This document shows, one piece after another, positions 34,588-41,108 of a stretch of 64,000 nt of DNA. The notes under the pieces were generated by a model. That model did no database searches. It saw only the letters and a program-made list of their open reading frames with translations, and was not told the DNA's origin. Source of the stretch: an uncultured Flavobacteriaceae bacterium. Lineage in GTDB: Bacteria; Bacteroidota; Bacteroidia; Flavobacteriales; Flavobacteriaceae. The stretch's first letter is position 1; each line of letters starts with the position of its first letter. The DNA lies in NCBI GenBank assembly GCA_947503005.1, contig CANNCA010000008.1:186001-250000 (forward strand). The letters are read 5' to 3'. A program made the translations under genes and the position numbers.

Positions 34588-34664
<77 letters not shown>

Positions 34665-34676
34665 AACACTTTTAAG

Positions 34677-34762
34677 TGATATCAAAGTACTGTTAATCTG
34701 TTGATTTTCAGTACTTTTTATTTTTTATGATATCATATAATATCATCTGAAATCATATCAAT
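34677..34762. repeat. Cluster of TGATATCA / ATATCAT repeats beside the integrase
   Basis: TGATATCA occurs at 34677-34684 and 34728-34735; ATATCAT at 34730-34736 and 34740-34746; a variant ATATCAA at 34755-34761. They lie between the attachment repeat and the integrase gene, where arm-type integrase sites are expected. Function is inferred from position only. Confidence 0.4.
34684..34726 (+). terminator. Hairpin terminator after tRNA-Pro
   Basis: AAAGTACTG (34684-34692) pairs with CAGTACTTT (34709-34717) around a 16-nt loop and is followed by a T-rich run. It belongs to the island side and now ends the tRNA transcript. Confidence 0.65.
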
Positions 34763-34877
34763 CGTGTGCGCATCGGGATAATTCTCGGCACATATATTGT
34801 TGTAACTTTAAGTAGTTTTTGAAGGTATTTTGCTTTCGTCTTTACCAATCACCAGTATTAATTTAAAGACGTATAAC

Positions 34878-36137
34878 ATGCACAACAACAGAAGATTAGC
34901 CGTATTATTTTTTACTCGAAAACACCGTAAGGTATCGGAAAATGTCATCCTTTATGTTCGTATTACTTCTAATGGAACAGTGAAGGAAATGAGCTTAAAT
35001 CGGGATATCCCTCGTGTGCTCTGGGACAATAATAAGAAGAGAGGAAGGGGATATTCTCAAAATATTCAATCACTGAATAAGTACCTAGACCAAGTTTATA
35101 CTAAGATACATGAGTGTCATCGACAACTTTTGTATGAAAATGTATTGGTAACAGCATCTTCAATTCGTGCGAAGTATTTAGGCGAAGACGAAAATGGTAA
35201 AACTTTACTTGAACTAATTAAATATCATAATTCTAATATGCATACTTCTCTAAAGAAGGGAACTATGAAGAATTATGGTATAACTGAACGTAACATCAAA
35301 AGCTTCTTGAAAAGTGATTACGGCATTGAAGATATTAAGCTCAAAAAACTGAACTATAGATTTATCGTAGACTTTGAGCAGTATCTAAGACGATATAAGC
35401 CTACCACCAGAACGCAATGCGGAAATAACGGAGCTATGAAACATATGGAGCGTTTAAAGAAAATGTCTCGGTTGGCTGTTCGTTTGGAATGGATTGATAA
35501 AGATCCCTTTATTAATTATAAACTTCGTTTTGAAAAAACGGAACGGCAGTTTTTGACAGAACGGGAATTGGAGTTAATCAAGGAAACGGACTTCACGCAA
35601 AAGAGTACACAAAGGATAAAAGATATTTTCCTATTCGCATGTTATACAGGATTATCGTACATCGATGTAAAGGAATTGTACGTGGACCATTTGGTCATGG
35701 GTATAGATGGTAATGAATGGTTGTATACGAAGCGCACTAAAACCGACGAACCTTTAAAAATTCCCTTGCTCCCTCAAGCCAAAGAAATTATTGAAAAGTA
35801 TGCAGATGAGCCAGATATCATGGAGGCTGGAAGGTTAGTACCTATTTACAGTAATCATATGATAAATCGAACTTTGAAAGAAATCATTAAGGTTTGTGGA
35901 ATTCGAAAGAATATAACTTTTCATGTAGCGCGTCATACGTTTGCTACCGCAATAACACTTTCCAACGGAGTACCAATAGAAACGGTATCAAAACTATTAG
36001 GGCATTCGAAGTTGTCAACTACTCAAATTTATGCGAAGGTTGTGGAAAAGAAAGTAGGGGAGGATATGCAAAACTTAATGAATCATTACAAGGCGAAGTT
36101 GAATCAAAATAGCGAAGCCCCCAAATCCTTACCTTAA
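34878..36137 (+). CDS. Tyrosine recombinase (CTnDOT/Bacteroidota-type integrase)
   Basis: 419 residues from the ATG at 34878, which is preferred to a TTG 48 bp upstream. N-terminal arm-binding domain (RRLAVLFFTRKHRKVSENV), SAM-like core-binding domain (about 115-215) and C-terminal catalytic domain with HVARHTFATAITL, LGHSKLSTTQIYAKV (tyrosine nucleophile) and CYTGLSYIDVKEL. In the last motif the first catalytic arginine is replaced by serine, as in the CTnDOT integrase. Its position next to tRNA-Pro and the attachment repeat marks it as the integrase of this island. Confidence 0.93.
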   Translation: MHNNRRLAVLFFTRKHRKVSENVILYVRITSNGTVKEMSLNRDIPRVLWDNNKKRGRGYSQNIQSLNKYLDQVYTKIHECHRQLLYENVLVTASSIRAKYLGEDENGKTLLELIKYHNSNMHTSLKKGTMKNYGITERNIKSFLKSDYGIEDIKLKKLNYRFIVDFEQYLRRYKPTTRTQCGNNGAMKHMERLKKMSRLAVRLEWIDKDPFINYKLRFEKTERQFLTERELELIKETDFTQKSTQRIKDIFLFACYTGLSYIDVKELYVDHLVMGIDGNEWLYTKRTKTDEPLKIPLLPQAKEIIEKYADEPDIMEAGRLVPIYSNHMINRTLKEIIKVCGIRKNITFHVARHTFATAITLSNGVPIETVSKLLGHSKLSTTQIYAKVVEKKVGEDMQNLMNHYKAKLNQNSEAPKSLP

Positions 36138-36152
36138 CTTTTGCGCATGGTT

Positions 36153-36182
36153 CCTGTCGGGTTTTTGAAGCGTCCCGATAGG
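36153..36182 (+). other. Hairpin downstream of the integrase
   Basis: CCTGTCGGG (36153-36161) pairs with CCCGATAGG (36174-36182), one G-U pair, 12-nt loop, 15 bp after the integrase stop. No T run follows, so a rho-independent terminator is uncertain. Confidence 0.35.
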
Positions 36183-36712
36183 TAAGCGTTAAGCAAAAAT
36201 CCGATAGGGCGCAATCTACTATGTTCTTGGATAAGTACATTTTAAAGTATTCTAAGTTTAGGAGTGAAGCGGATAAATTTCGAATAGCAAGACGGTAACA
36301 CGCTAAAGCGATGTTACGAATTTTGATTTTAATAATAAATCATTGAATATCAATATTTTAAATACTTAATCTGATTATTTTAGAATAATGGTGAGGTCAA
36401 AAGTTTATTGAAAAACGCACCTCAAACCCTATAAACATTGGAAAAGTTTATTGAAAAAAATACTTTGACACCTCGCAAGCAGATTAGTTTGGTAAGTATT
36501 TGGGACTTGCAGCACGAAACTTTGTTTCGTTCGCTCTCTATATCGGTAGATCAAAATTTTTGTCAAATAGGATTTTTTCTTTTGCGACCTTCGGGAGAAA
36601 AAGCAAGATTGTCATGACAATGACACATCTTGAATTGCTTCGCAATGAAGTTGGAAGGTTATTTTTTTGTGAACCTACATTGAAACCCTGAGTTAAGGAC
36701 TAATTTCAATAA

Positions 36713-36789
36713 TGTCGATAAAATTTAAATATTTCGACATATATTTGTATTGTGTCGATGTCTTCGACATAGTTGTATTCATATGTCGA
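36713..36789 (+). promoter_or_regulatory. TGTCGA operator array and promoter of the Fic gene
   Basis: Five half-sites: TGTCGA at 36713-36718, inverted at 36734-36739, TGTCGA at 36753-36758, inverted at 36764-36769, and TGTCGA at 36784-36789. A perfect -7 box TATATTTG (36740-36747) lies between the two inverted pairs, so the first pair spans the upstream promoter and the second covers the expected transcription start. This is the arrangement of a repressor array. Confidence 0.65.
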
Positions 36790-36793
36790 AATC

Positions 36794-37867
36794 ATGTTTA
36801 ATAAGAACGAACCCTATAACGATTTACCGCTATTACCACCTAAAGTAGAACTTGAAACCAAAAAGGTTTTAAAGCAAGCTATTGCAGCAACGCGTGTACT
36901 GGCAGAGTTAAAGGGTAGAGCAGATGAGATTCCAAACCAGTCTATGCTTATCAATGCAATTACGTTGCAGGAAGCAAAAGATAGTTCCGAAATTGAGAAC
37001 ATTGTAACTACTGATGATAATCTCTATCAAGCTTTTAGTGCTAATACAAATACAACCGATGCACAAACCAAAGAAGTATTACGATATCGACAAGCCTTAT
37101 GGGAAGGTTACAATAACTTAGATAAAAGACCTTTATCTACAAATACTTTTGTGTCCATAGTACAGACTATTAAAGAGAATAATTCAGGTATTCGTAAAAC
37201 AACCGGAACAAGAATAACCAGTAATAATAAAACCATTTATACACCACCAGAAGGTGAGAAGGTTATCAGGGACTTGCTGAAAAACTTAGAGGACTTTGTA
37301 CATGCAGAAAATGGTATTGACGATTTGGTGCGATTAGCGGTAATGCACTACCAATTTGAAGCCATTCACCCATTTCCTGATGGTAACGGAAGAACAGGAA
37401 GGGTTTTAAATATTCTATACTTGGTAGAAAAAGGTTTGTTGGATGCACCTATTTTGTATTTAAGTAAATATATAATTGAGAATAAAAATCAGTACTACAC
37501 AAAATTAAGAGCTGTTACTGAAAAACAAGATTGGGAAGGATGGATATTATATATGCTTAAAGGTGTAGAAGAAACAGCCAAATATACCCTTGAAAAAATT
37601 AACGCTATTAATTCCCTGATGCATGATACTATTGCTTTTGCAAAAGAAAAATTACCTTCAAGAGTTTATTCGAAAGAACTAATAGAGTTATTATTTGAAC
37701 AACCTTATTGCAAAGTGAAGTTTTTGGTGGATAAAGGTATTGCCAAACGTCAAACCGCAGCTGAATATTTACAAGAATTAGAAAAAACAGGTATTTTAAA
37801 ATCTCAAAAAGTGGGGGTGGAGAATTTGTTTTTAAATATAAGATTGTTTGAGATTTTGCAAAGCTGA
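36794..37867 (+). CDS. Fic-family protein (AMPylase-type)
   Basis: 357 residues from the ATG at 36794. N-terminal Fic_N-type region with the inhibitory-helix motif SSEIEN (S/T-xxx-E-N/G), so a self-inhibited class II Fic; the Fic core motif HPFPDGNGRTGR (HxFx[D/E]GNGRxxR) is intact; a C-terminal winged-helix-like region (KVKFLVDKGIAKRQTAAEYLQELEK) could bind DNA. Family members transfer AMP to target proteins. Within the island it is probably a toxin/antitoxin-like or regulatory cargo, and its own C-terminal domain may bind the TGTCGA array upstream. It converges on the Argonaute gene. Confidence 0.88.
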   Translation: MFNKNEPYNDLPLLPPKVELETKKVLKQAIAATRVLAELKGRADEIPNQSMLINAITLQEAKDSSEIENIVTTDDNLYQAFSANTNTTDAQTKEVLRYRQALWEGYNNLDKRPLSTNTFVSIVQTIKENNSGIRKTTGTRITSNNKTIYTPPEGEKVIRDLLKNLEDFVHAENGIDDLVRLAVMHYQFEAIHPFPDGNGRTGRVLNILYLVEKGLLDAPILYLSKYIIENKNQYYTKLRAVTEKQDWEGWILYMLKGVEETAKYTLEKINAINSLMHDTIAFAKEKLPSRVYSKELIELLFEQPYCKVKFLVDKGIAKRQTAAEYLQELEKTGILKSQKVGVENLFLNIRLFEILQS

Positions 37868-37890
37868 TTTTACCGCAAAAGGATTGAGGT

Positions 37891-39420
37891 TCATATATAG
37901 TATCTAAATGGTAGAGCAGGTCTTAGATTACTTATATCTCCAGAAGTAAGAATATCTCCAATAACATTTGCAAATTTTAATGTAACAGGCATACCGTCAC
38001 AATACCTACATGAATTATAGTTTAATTTGGTCAAAGCTAAAATATCGTAACATACTGTTCTCATAGATACATTTCCTTTTCCCCTTGTTAGTCTTATCGT
38101 TATAGGATTAGGTGTTTCCATACCTAGAGGTTGTTGTAATCTTGGAATGAATCCCTTTGTCCATAAATATGCACTGCTACTATTTCGTTGATAAAAACTA
38201 CCTCTTAAGATGGGGAAATTTTTGTCTCGATACAGTTTAAATATCTTTTCATCTTTGATAGTAACTCCTAATAAGTTGATTTCATGATTCTCAACAGCCT
38301 CCATAAACCCGTCCCATTCTTCATCACTAAAATTTGTCCTACCGTGAATAAAGATCTCCTTAGGTACCTGCTGGTTATTGGATTTTTTGAAAGATTCAAG
38401 GGCAACATTCAATAGCTCTTTCGCTGCTTTTTTAGTCAAATGATATTCCTTTGTTTCCTCATTATACCAAGGTCCCACAGCACCCTTAAATACCATGCCA
38501 TCCCCACTATCAAGAAACATTTGGGCTGCGCAACAGGCATATCTACTGTCTTTACTTCGCTCGTTAATCTTGAAAACCAAACCAATGTAGCAGACACCCT
38601 TTCTAATTTTGCCAAGTTTCCAAGGCAATCCCCCAATTTTGTAATACACGGAGGTGCCAATATTCCATGCGATGTCCGCCTCCATAGATGATAAATCTCT
38701 TTTTGGTTCTCCTTTAATGTTCAAATACGGAAATTGATTATAAGCAATAGTAGATTCTCTTATAATTTGAGTTAAAATCTCATGTTTTAGAAGTTTAAGT
38801 TTTAGCTGATTATGAAAGTGGTTATCGTAGTTGTAGCTCTGTTTTAGCCTAACAAGTTCAGGATCTATTTCATCAAAAAGCCCAACATTCTCTCTTGCAT
38901 ATTTATTTTTTATTCCAATTTTTATCGGATTAGTTGCTGGTTTCGATTTAATTCTACCATGCTTGTAGACCTCATCAGGTATAACAACGAACCAAACGTT
39001 AACAGGTGGTCCATCATCATCTTTTCTTTGTTCGACCAATTTTTCAACAAACAAATCTACCATACTGGCCACTCGAACGTGAGCATCTGAGTATCTGTAG
39101 TATTCAAACAGCTTGTTTTCATCTATTTCAATTTCCAATTTTGAGTTTTGGTTTATGGTAACGCCAAAAGCAGATTCAAAACCAGGATAAAAAGGTTTTG
39201 AAATATCCTTTTTTTTGGGAAAAATCGGATTAAGAAATTTCTCTAGCCATTCATTCATTGCTGAAATCCCGTATTTCGTACCGATGATTCCAATTGAAAA
39301 ATTATTTATCTTTTTCTTAGTAAACGGACCAAATAAAGTCAAACCATCTCTCGGGTCGATAACTTTTTGACCATGATTAAAAAGTAAATAGGGCTCTTTA
39401 ATATGTTTTAGCTCTATCAT
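37891..39420 (-). CDS. Short prokaryotic Argonaute (MID-PIWI), SPARTA type
   Basis: 509 residues from the ATG at 39418-39420 (MIELKHIKEPYLLFNHGQ), directly after the APAZ stop; an upstream in-frame start (39444) would overlap APAZ. The N-terminal EPxLxF/GPF segments, the MID region, and PIWI segments (WNIGTSVYYKIGGLPWKL, CYIGLVFKINERS, FIHGRTNFSDEEW) fit catalytically inactive short pAgos; length equals the roughly 507 aa of characterised SPARTA Argonautes. In that system a guide-loaded Ago/TIR-APAZ heterodimer senses invader DNA, oligomerises and lets the TIR domain degrade NAD+. The tetrad of slicing Argonautes is not apparent. Confidence 0.9.
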   Translation of the reverse strand: MIELKHIKEPYLLFNHGQKVIDPRDGLTLFGPFTKKKINNFSIGIIGTKYGISAMNEWLEKFLNPIFPKKKDISKPFYPGFESAFGVTINQNSKLEIEIDENKLFEYYRYSDAHVRVASMVDLFVEKLVEQRKDDDGPPVNVWFVVIPDEVYKHGRIKSKPATNPIKIGIKNKYARENVGLFDEIDPELVRLKQSYNYDNHFHNQLKLKLLKHEILTQIIRESTIAYNQFPYLNIKGEPKRDLSSMEADIAWNIGTSVYYKIGGLPWKLGKIRKGVCYIGLVFKINERSKDSRYACCAAQMFLDSGDGMVFKGAVGPWYNEETKEYHLTKKAAKELLNVALESFKKSNNQQVPKEIFIHGRTNFSDEEWDGFMEAVENHEINLLGVTIKDEKIFKLYRDKNFPILRGSFYQRNSSSAYLWTKGFIPRLQQPLGMETPNPITIRLTRGKGNVSMRTVCYDILALTKLNYNSCRYCDGMPVTLKFANVIGDILTSGDISNLRPALPFRYYI

Positions 39421-39421
39421 T

Positions 39422-40165
39422 TTATTCTTCCTCATTTTCATCAAATTCGTTCAATTCATTTTGATAAAACTCTTCTTCCTCTAAGAAATCGTCAATTGGA
39501 ATAAGTCTATTTTCATCTGTTGGCTCTATGTAGCTAAAGGGAGCATTGAAAAGAATTGGCACCGTGGATAAAACAAGGTTTTCTTCTAATGAAACAGGAA
39601 TTACAATTTCATCGTTGAAGTTTTCTGATAGTGTCGAAAGAAACGCTAAAAGCAAATCTCTCCATTCTTTATTGAAAAAACGTTTCCCTTTACTTCTTCG
39701 AGCCTTGTGCATTTTTTTTTGATCTTCCCATAAGGTTTCTCCATCTGATGAAAATAAAAGATGATTCTTTATACTAAAACATGGTTCAGGAGATAGCATA
39801 GTTCTAAAACTAATTGCATAGTGCCAAAAGCTATCAAAATATTTGCCTGTAACTCCAATATTTTTTTCTTTTTCCTCCAATAGAAACTTTCCTTTTACTT
39901 TGTCTTCAGGATTATGATTATAGTAGAAACAAGTATTGCTTGACAATTCATACTCATTTTTAACTTTGTTTAGTAAAAAGGCTTTAAATACGTTATTTAA
40001 AAGTCTTACCAACAATCGTCTAAAATCATGGAATGTTGGAAATTCATCATCTTCATAATATTGAAAAGCTGATGATGTTTTTTTGCTTATGATCTCTTTT
40101 GGGATTAAGTTTAGGTTTTCACTTGGAATGAAGCAATCAATTTCTGCTTGAAATGTTATAACCAT
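39422..40165 (-). CDS. APAZ domain protein (C-terminal part of a split TIR-APAZ)
   Basis: 247 residues; APAZ domain that pairs with short Argonautes, with the family pattern KKMHKARRSKGKRFFNKEWRDLL (first 20 residues around the basic motif are the clearest) and an acidic C-terminal tail. It begins at an ATG in the same frame as the TIR gene, five codons after the TIR gene's TAA (40181-40183). In known SPARTA operons TIR and APAZ are one polypeptide of about 450 aa; TIR (209) plus APAZ (247) gives the same total here. It is translated separately only if ribosomes reinitiate at 40165. The Ago start follows the stop by one base. Confidence 0.82.
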   Translation of the reverse strand: MVITFQAEIDCFIPSENLNLIPKEIISKKTSSAFQYYEDDEFPTFHDFRRLLVRLLNNVFKAFLLNKVKNEYELSSNTCFYYNHNPEDKVKGKFLLEEKEKNIGVTGKYFDSFWHYAISFRTMLSPEPCFSIKNHLLFSSDGETLWEDQKKMHKARRSKGKRFFNKEWRDLLLAFLSTLSENFNDEIVIPVSLEENLVLSTVPILFNAPFSYIEPTDENRLIPIDDFLEEEEFYQNELNEFDENEEE

Positions 40166-40180
40166 ATTCCCATGTCTGAA

Positions 40181-40810
40181 TTATGGAAACAAAGTGTTTT
40201 TTACAATTGTCTTGGCTTGTTTATCATTACTAAATTTATGGAAATAGAGTGTTTCTGGTAACCGAGGAATTTTTAACCAATTTGAATAAAAAGTGTCTGA
40301 GCTATTTTGTTGAATTCCAACCCAATTAGTATAAACATTGTTGTACCAATTCTTAATAGACAGACTATTGTTGTTTACAGTTGGAACTTGGTCATTAATT
40401 AATTTTCTAAAAACTCTTTTTAACCCTGAAGGCCAACCTTTATCAAAGGGTATAAGATTTTTGCGATTTAGCCCTATTCGAGCATTAAAAGCTGAATTGT
40501 CTATCTTAACCGGAATAATAAAATCTTTGAGGCCAAATTGTTTTTCAATGCTTTTGCAATGCTCCCATTCATCAAGGACACCACTCTTTTCAAAAGTACT
40601 GTTAGAAATAACAAGAATGTACTTAATGGTTCTTTTTTCGAGAAATTCTTGTAGAACATTCCAGTAATCTGATTCCCCGCCAATTAAAAGAGATAAATCA
40701 CATTCACAATTGTAACCTTCATTTTGCAATTTTGATTGGAGCCATAATGTAAATTCGTTATCCTCTGGTGTAGCATGACCAATAAAAATAGTATCTCTTT
40801 TAATAAACAT
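40181..40810 (-). CDS. TIR-domain NADase (N-terminal part of a split TIR-APAZ)
   Basis: 209 residues. TIR fold: TIFIGHATPEDNEF (first strand), WLQSKLQNEGYNCECDL, YILVISNSTFEKSGVLDEW with the likely catalytic glutamate at E81, and FIIPVKID. The last about 90 residues (WLKIPRLPETLYFHKF) are the linker and first strands of APAZ, so the stop falls inside that domain. The frame continues past the TAA as FRHGN into the APAZ gene, so one nonsense change splits a formerly single TIR-APAZ protein. Function: NAD+ degradation on activation, killing or arresting an infected cell. Confidence 0.85.
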   Translation of the reverse strand: MFIKRDTIFIGHATPEDNEFTLWLQSKLQNEGYNCECDLSLLIGGESDYWNVLQEFLEKRTIKYILVISNSTFEKSGVLDEWEHCKSIEKQFGLKDFIIPVKIDNSAFNARIGLNRKNLIPFDKGWPSGLKRVFRKLINDQVPTVNNNSLSIKNWYNNVYTNWVGIQQNSSDTFYSNWLKIPRLPETLYFHKFSNDKQAKTIVKNTLFP

Positions 40811-41094
40811 TAAGATAAATGTGAATTTTAGGTTAGATGTGTTTACCTAATTGAAAACTAATAACTATGAACAAGGTAAGAATAATTTTAACATTTGTAA
40901 GCAAATTCTAACATGCATAAATTTTGCACTCTTTTAAATCGTATTGATTTTATGTCTATTTTTAAAGTGGTAAAAACGCATAAAATTTACCTTTAAAAGT
41001 TGCGATTTAGTAAACGTGTTCTTTTTAGGATACGAGATTAAATAACAGTATTTAATTTATTGATAATCAGACACTTGAAATGGTTAAGTGGATG
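40811..41094. promoter_or_regulatory. SPARTA promoter region and island right end
   Basis: On the minus strand TAGTTTTC (plus 40853-40860) is close to the TAnnTTTG -7 box, and the inverted repeat TTAGGT (40828-40833)/ACCTAA (40845-40850) lies between it and the TIR start codon, a possible operator. The rest (to 41094) is AT-rich with no visible gene. Confidence 0.4.
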
Positions 41095-41108
41095 CTGTCA
41101 TCCCGACT
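41095..41108 (+). repeat. Right attachment repeat (attR)
   Basis: CTGTCATCCCGACT, identical to 34650-34663 in the tRNA-Pro 3' end. It is followed by the displaced tRNA terminator. Confidence 0.85.

Follow-up and report, generated by a model that had tools for sequence, protein, structure and literature searches.

A SPARTA-Type Argonaute Operon on a Likely Mobile Element, With Its Effector Probably Lost to a Single Recent In-Frame Stop

Main Finding

In the genome of an uncultured Flavobacteriaceae bacterium, an operon for SPARTA, an Argonaute-guided antiviral system of bacteria, is probably carried by a mobile element and seems to have lost its TIR-APAZ effector through a single recent nonsense change while its Argonaute gene stayed intact, a reading to which we assign a probability of about three in four. 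The DNA analyzed here, termed the window, is a stretch of 64,000 nucleotides, and its relevant features are collected in Table 1. Under this reading, the nonsense change would end translation after residue 209, within the APAZ-N subdomain, leaving a TIR piece that would retain the catalytic Glu but little of the APAZ surface responsible for binding Ago and gripping the guide/target duplex. Tetramers should therefore no longer form in response to a target, nor should NAD+ be depleted, so the operon has probably lost its activity, and the change would persist because it spares the cell the burden of a suicidal effector.

Table 1. Features of the SPARTA operon and the surrounding element (positions in the window)
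Feature	Position	Strand	Remarks
tRNA-Pro (ggg), likely integration target	34588..34662	+	ARAGORN
tRNA 3′ end, likely left attachment repeat	34647..34663	+	recurs with 16/17 bases at 41092-41108
Tyrosine recombinase (integrase)	34830..36137	+	Pfam Phage_int_SAM_5, Phage_integrase, Arm-DNA-bind_5
Fic-domain protein (SoFic-like), convergent to the SPARTA operon	36773..37867	+	Pfam Fic_N, Fic, SoFic-like_C
Short Argonaute (MID-PIWI), intact	37891..39420	-	509 aa; PIWI tetrad positions V, Y, R, N (inactive)
Open frame for the remaining APAZ (most of APAZ-N, L1, L2, acidic tail), a putative separate product	39422..40165	-	247 aa
Out-of-frame ATG (40173-40171) with 5-codon frame; precedes and overlaps the in-frame ATG	40156..40173	-	
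Five codons from the stop to the in-frame ATG	40166..40180	-	vs. L010: 6 synonymous, 1 non-synonymous
In-frame TAA stop	40181..40183	-	aligned to residue 207 of the 8fex TIR-APAZ chain, within APAZ-N
Open frame: TIR domain, bridging helix and first ~40 residues of APAZ-N	40181..40810	-	209 aa; catalytic Glu = window residue 81
Likely right attachment repeat, end of the ~6.5-kb element	41092..41108	+	16/17 repeat; just upstream of the SPARTA operon

Operon Anatomy and the Position of the Stop

The minus strand carries the TIR frame, the TAA, five codons, the APAZ frame and the Ago gene in this order, and the ATG of Ago lies one base past the APAZ stop codon. Against the PADLOC profile PDLC02403 (Aga_TIR-PNTD1-PNTD2), the TIR frame covers positions 1-197 (E 3.6e-62) and the APAZ frame positions 210-421 (E 4.7e-51), consecutively and without overlap, and Ago matches pAgo_I (PDLC02378) over 3-509 with E 2.2e-184, values far beyond chance. 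The TIR frame also gives a TIR_2 match (E 1.9e-10), and its catalytic Glu aligns with E77. The operon thus has a short pAgo with an inactive PIWI tetrad, a TIR domain with the catalytic Glu and an APAZ of the TIR-linked group, both halves of the partner matching PDLC02403 best; what it does not have is TIR and APAZ in a single polypeptide, owing to the in-frame TAA. Apart from this codon, the TIR/APAZ reading runs over 456 codons with no further stop or frame change. The stop itself does not lie in a long homopolymer, although six A occur in a row 13 bases ahead of it.

Eight distinct sequences among solved structures match the TIR half, and the APAZ half matches strongly only these eight, all of which are named TIR-APAZ or TIR domain-containing protein; the best structure matches of Ago are the Argonaute partners of these eight chains, with an alignment over 2-509 to 8ifk_B (E 6e-149). 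The SPARTA assignment made in the first-pass annotation is borne out, as are its single in-frame stop, its frame lengths and the ATG five codons on. It had, however, placed the stop between TIR and APAZ, which is incorrect. When 15 sequences are aligned, the stop corresponds to residue 207 of the TIR-APAZ protein of PDB 8fex, and residue numbering of the solved chains runs parallel around the break region. In the domain map of the C. thermophila protein, TIR spans 1-138, the linker 139-160 and APAZ-N 167-280 (PMC11156904), so that the stop falls about 40 residues into APAZ-N and not at the boundary of TIR and APAZ.

The SPARTA systems of Maribacter polysiphoniae and Crenotalea thermophila are represented by PDB chains such as 8fex and 8ifk, the 8fex chain belonging to the Maribacter complex. 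The sequence L016, whose genome falls in the family of the window, is identical to the 8fex chain at 451 of 452 positions, in agreement with a most likely Flavobacteriaceae origin of the window. A complex of the species “polysiphoniae” is the subject of an earlier study (PMC10474274). The two known systems share with the window the gene order, the short inactive Ago, the TIR with its catalytic Glu and the APAZ, whereas their partner is one polypeptide and that of the window is cut at residue 207 (PMC10474274; PMC11156904).

When 24 positions were compared with the 8fex protein, one was the stop, 13 were the same and 10 were different. Those kept include Thr11, Trp46, Glu77, Arg114, Asn116 and Tyr154 in the TIR half and Arg263, Ser288, His340, Arg362 and Lys366 in the APAZ half, where five of eight nucleic-acid contact positions are preserved. 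The positions that differ, all of them mentioned in the structure papers, are D44, F45, R54, Y105, D111, V113, L159, R201, K211 and K328, and at several of them mutation weakens the known NADase (PMC10474274). The closest intact relative, L010, also differs from 8fex at all ten, and we thus take them for traits of the branch rather than damage. With these differences, an activity of the window/L010 branch like that of 8fex, present or ancestral, is nevertheless putative. An AlphaFold2 model of the L010 TIR-APAZ was set aside (mean pLDDT 45.8, about 30-35 around the break).

Relatives of the TIR-APAZ Gene

L010, a Bacteroidia MAG (JAUHWX010000066.1), is the closest relative found, with identities to the window of 75% for Ago, 66% for the TIR half and 49% for the APAZ half; L041 gives identical values. 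L010 differs from the window in having one unbroken TIR-APAZ of 459 aa, in register on both sides of the window stop. Counted from the preceding stop, its TIR-APAZ frame has no ATG before the 211th codon (L010 3295-3927), and therefore seems to begin at TTG.

The TIR-APAZ profile was searched in five overlapping draws of Bacteroidota genomes (98, 395, 397, 395 and 395 genomes, with E limits of 1e-3, 1e-20, 1e-15, 1e-15 and 1e-30), a full-length match being one that covers about 2-420 or more of the profile. None of the 13 other distinct full-length matches in these draws carries a stop, and no natural split common to the relatives was found among them or the partial matches inspected. An Ago match lies in the fetched flank of 12 of the 13; for the remaining one (L013, 1495-2904), also a full-length TIR-APAZ, the ~1.5 kb retrieved at each side contains no match to Ago. 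Of the partial matches inspected, L037 has a TIR remnant that gives way to other coding sequence, L038 has the end of an APAZ at the edge of its contig, and L039 is a different, weak TIR with TAG; L003 has no blastp match to the TIR, APAZ or Ago of the window. The further partial matches are TIR-only by profile coverage, in frames of 261 to 796 aa. The window's own genome holds one TIR-APAZ profile match (E <= 0.001) and one Ago match, so no intact spare copy of the family was found there.

Viral contigs yielded no relative of the APAZ half and none of the Ago alignment, and a single distant TIR-APAZ, which is unbroken (L079). A remnant resembling the start of a SPARTA TIR, with 38 residues matched in a 70-aa frame, was seen on a 247-kb viral contig (IMGVR_UViG_3300025161_000004, L080 4998-5210). 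No split TIR-APAZ was found in the titles and abstract openings of open-licence PMC papers.

Among plasmids, the APAZ half was matched in 27 records, 24 of which have the match under a TIR-named gene, and the annotation was looked at in eight. The three exceptions are an unbroken 470-aa gene in R. etli and genes with frame changes in Aminobacter and, upstream, in S. meliloti USDA1157. The plasmid pAA04 of Aminobacter aminovorans (NZ_CP015009.1, L091 1973-4964) resembles the window in having TIR and APAZ in separate frames with the downstream Ago frame open, but the disruption consists of two frame changes, possibly sequencing errors, and no stop codon. Genes for Fic and Hachiman HamA adjoin this broken SPARTA. 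On psymA of S. meliloti USDA1157 (NZ_CP021794.1, L092 1622-3528; a record with only two annotated features) one frame change lies upstream of TIR, in the N-terminal part of the partner, which is one open gene in S. meliloti M162. The frame changes of pAA04 and USDA1157 may be real or may be sequencing errors.

Age of the Break

Relative-rate tests compared the window with L010, using L040 and L014 as outgroups and counting unique sites. The counts for window and L010 under the two outgroups were 7 vs. 6 and 5 vs. 4 in TIR, 25 vs. 27 and 22 vs. 22 in the APAZ half, and 22 vs. 23 and 23 vs. 16 in Ago, with no significant excess in the window lineage for any of the three. In segment 141-209 the counts were 4 vs. 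10 and 5 vs. 6, the window being slower, if anything. The operon has thus not been dead for long, since neither the two halves of the partner nor Ago has accelerated relative to L010.

The five codons after the stop differ from L010 by six synonymous changes and one non-synonymous (P = 0.0008, with 77% of sites non-synonymous, in a test chosen after seeing the alignment), which suggests that translation extended through them during most of the time since the window and L010 diverged. An old split restarting at the ATG would let these codons drift, and the stop is therefore recent, or read through, or an error. The ten codons after the in-frame ATG have no such constraint (pN/pS 1.45), which cautions against reading much into very short stretches.

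The Integrative Element Around the Operon

The SPARTA operon is likely the cargo of a tRNA-Pro integrative element of ~6.5 kb, a placement that the first-pass annotation did not have. Between the tRNA-Pro and the far repeat (34588-41108) lie the tyrosine recombinase, the Fic protein and the SPARTA genes, so that an integrase stands beside the tRNA and the tRNA 3′ end recurs at the far end in 16 of 17 bases. No change in base composition accompanies the ends: G+C ranges over 0.29-0.36 within the element, yet it lies at 0.34-0.37 from as early as about 33 kb and at 0.32-0.37 as far as about 45 kb, and it fails to mark them because the low-G+C stretch is wider than the element. The tRNA-Pro is 100% identical over 75-76 bases in five of the 13 other genomes of the genus. 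Among 12 related genomes (L066-L077), an integrase match beside the tRNA-Pro is clear in two (L068, 59%; L075, 55%) and weak in two (L070, L074), making the site look like an integration hotspot. In one of five longer stretches (L088, from G010) the 12-base core occurs a second time, ~1.9 kb away from the tRNA. No empty site came to light: relatives of the right-hand neighbor gene of the element do not adjoin tRNA-Pro in any of the four stretches retrieved. From this arrangement the element was presumably mobile.

Weighing the Alternatives

Of the three options named in the first-pass annotation, recent inactivation fits best, and a natural two-subunit variant, which it had thought would be a new three-component SPARTA, is not borne out, given a break in APAZ-N and not in the linker, codons that bear the mark of long translation and the unbroken state of all 13 other full-length Bacteroidota matches. 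Inactivation is favored by the stop in APAZ-N, the intact L010 and other full-length matches, the codon signal, the want of a spare copy, the common use of TAA and the parallel of pAA04; it is opposed by the otherwise open and unrelaxed reading, the close in-frame ATG, the intact Ago and the ten differences from 8fex. A tolerated split or a sequence error would look alike here, because the 456 codons are otherwise open and show no relaxed evolution. That the strain's gene is in fact intact, and the stop an error of sequencing or assembly, is unlikely: the unbroken matches and the absence of relaxation would suit it, but the contig is 255 kb long in a 31-contig assembly that is 99.96% complete, and the stop itself is free of long homopolymers, although the run of six A precedes it. 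Least probable of all the readings is a low level of read-through at the TAA, giving a small dose of full-length effector that would be enough for a suicidal system, or deliberately low. Conservation across the stop and unrelaxed evolution would agree with it, yet TAA followed by T is a tight stop, TAA is the commonest stop of the window genes (22 of 43, the TIR frame included), and no full-length relative found carries the stop. The same usage led us to reject an alternative genetic code. The tRNA-Pro is the only tRNA that ARAGORN found within the window, and no suppressor tRNA was thus seen there.

A working split SPARTA, in which translation stops, restarts at the ATG five codons on and yields fragments that reassemble on Ago as a three-part complex, we consider very unlikely. 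An in-frame ATG does lie near the stop, coupled restart is plausible in an operon where Ago begins one base after APAZ, all three frames are open, the catalytic Glu and the nucleic-acid contact positions noted above are kept, and TIR-less APAZ is on record, one survey counting 16 group IIa APAZ proteins without TIR against 122 with it (PMC6299218). Nevertheless, the break lies in APAZ-N, a restarting ribosome would first meet an out-of-frame ATG (at 40173), the codons up to the in-frame ATG are conserved at the protein level and no full-length relative found shares the break. The ATG by itself is no signal, since one occurs in frame within six codons at 12% of 17504 positions in 43 window genes (29% when GTG and TTG are admitted). 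Restart is thus possible, the more so given the position of Ago, and selection for it finds no support. More improbable still is that this form is a natural three-subunit SPARTA, made by coupled restart from TIR with the edge of APAZ-N, the rest of APAZ and Ago, in which a junction beside the duplex channel would serve as an extra brake on a suicidal NADase. No simple repeat was seen at the stop, and reversible switching was rejected; upstream of the TIR start there was no match to the flavobacterial promoter pattern.

Implications

If the split form worked, it would offer a ready-made split SPARTA for dissecting how the signal of target binding reaches the TIR domain. On the preferred reading of recent inactivation, the operon would be a further example of an Argonaute defense operon, here on what is likely a mobile element, that combines a broken toxic effector with an open sensor gene, and would thus illustrate the cost of suicidal immunity.
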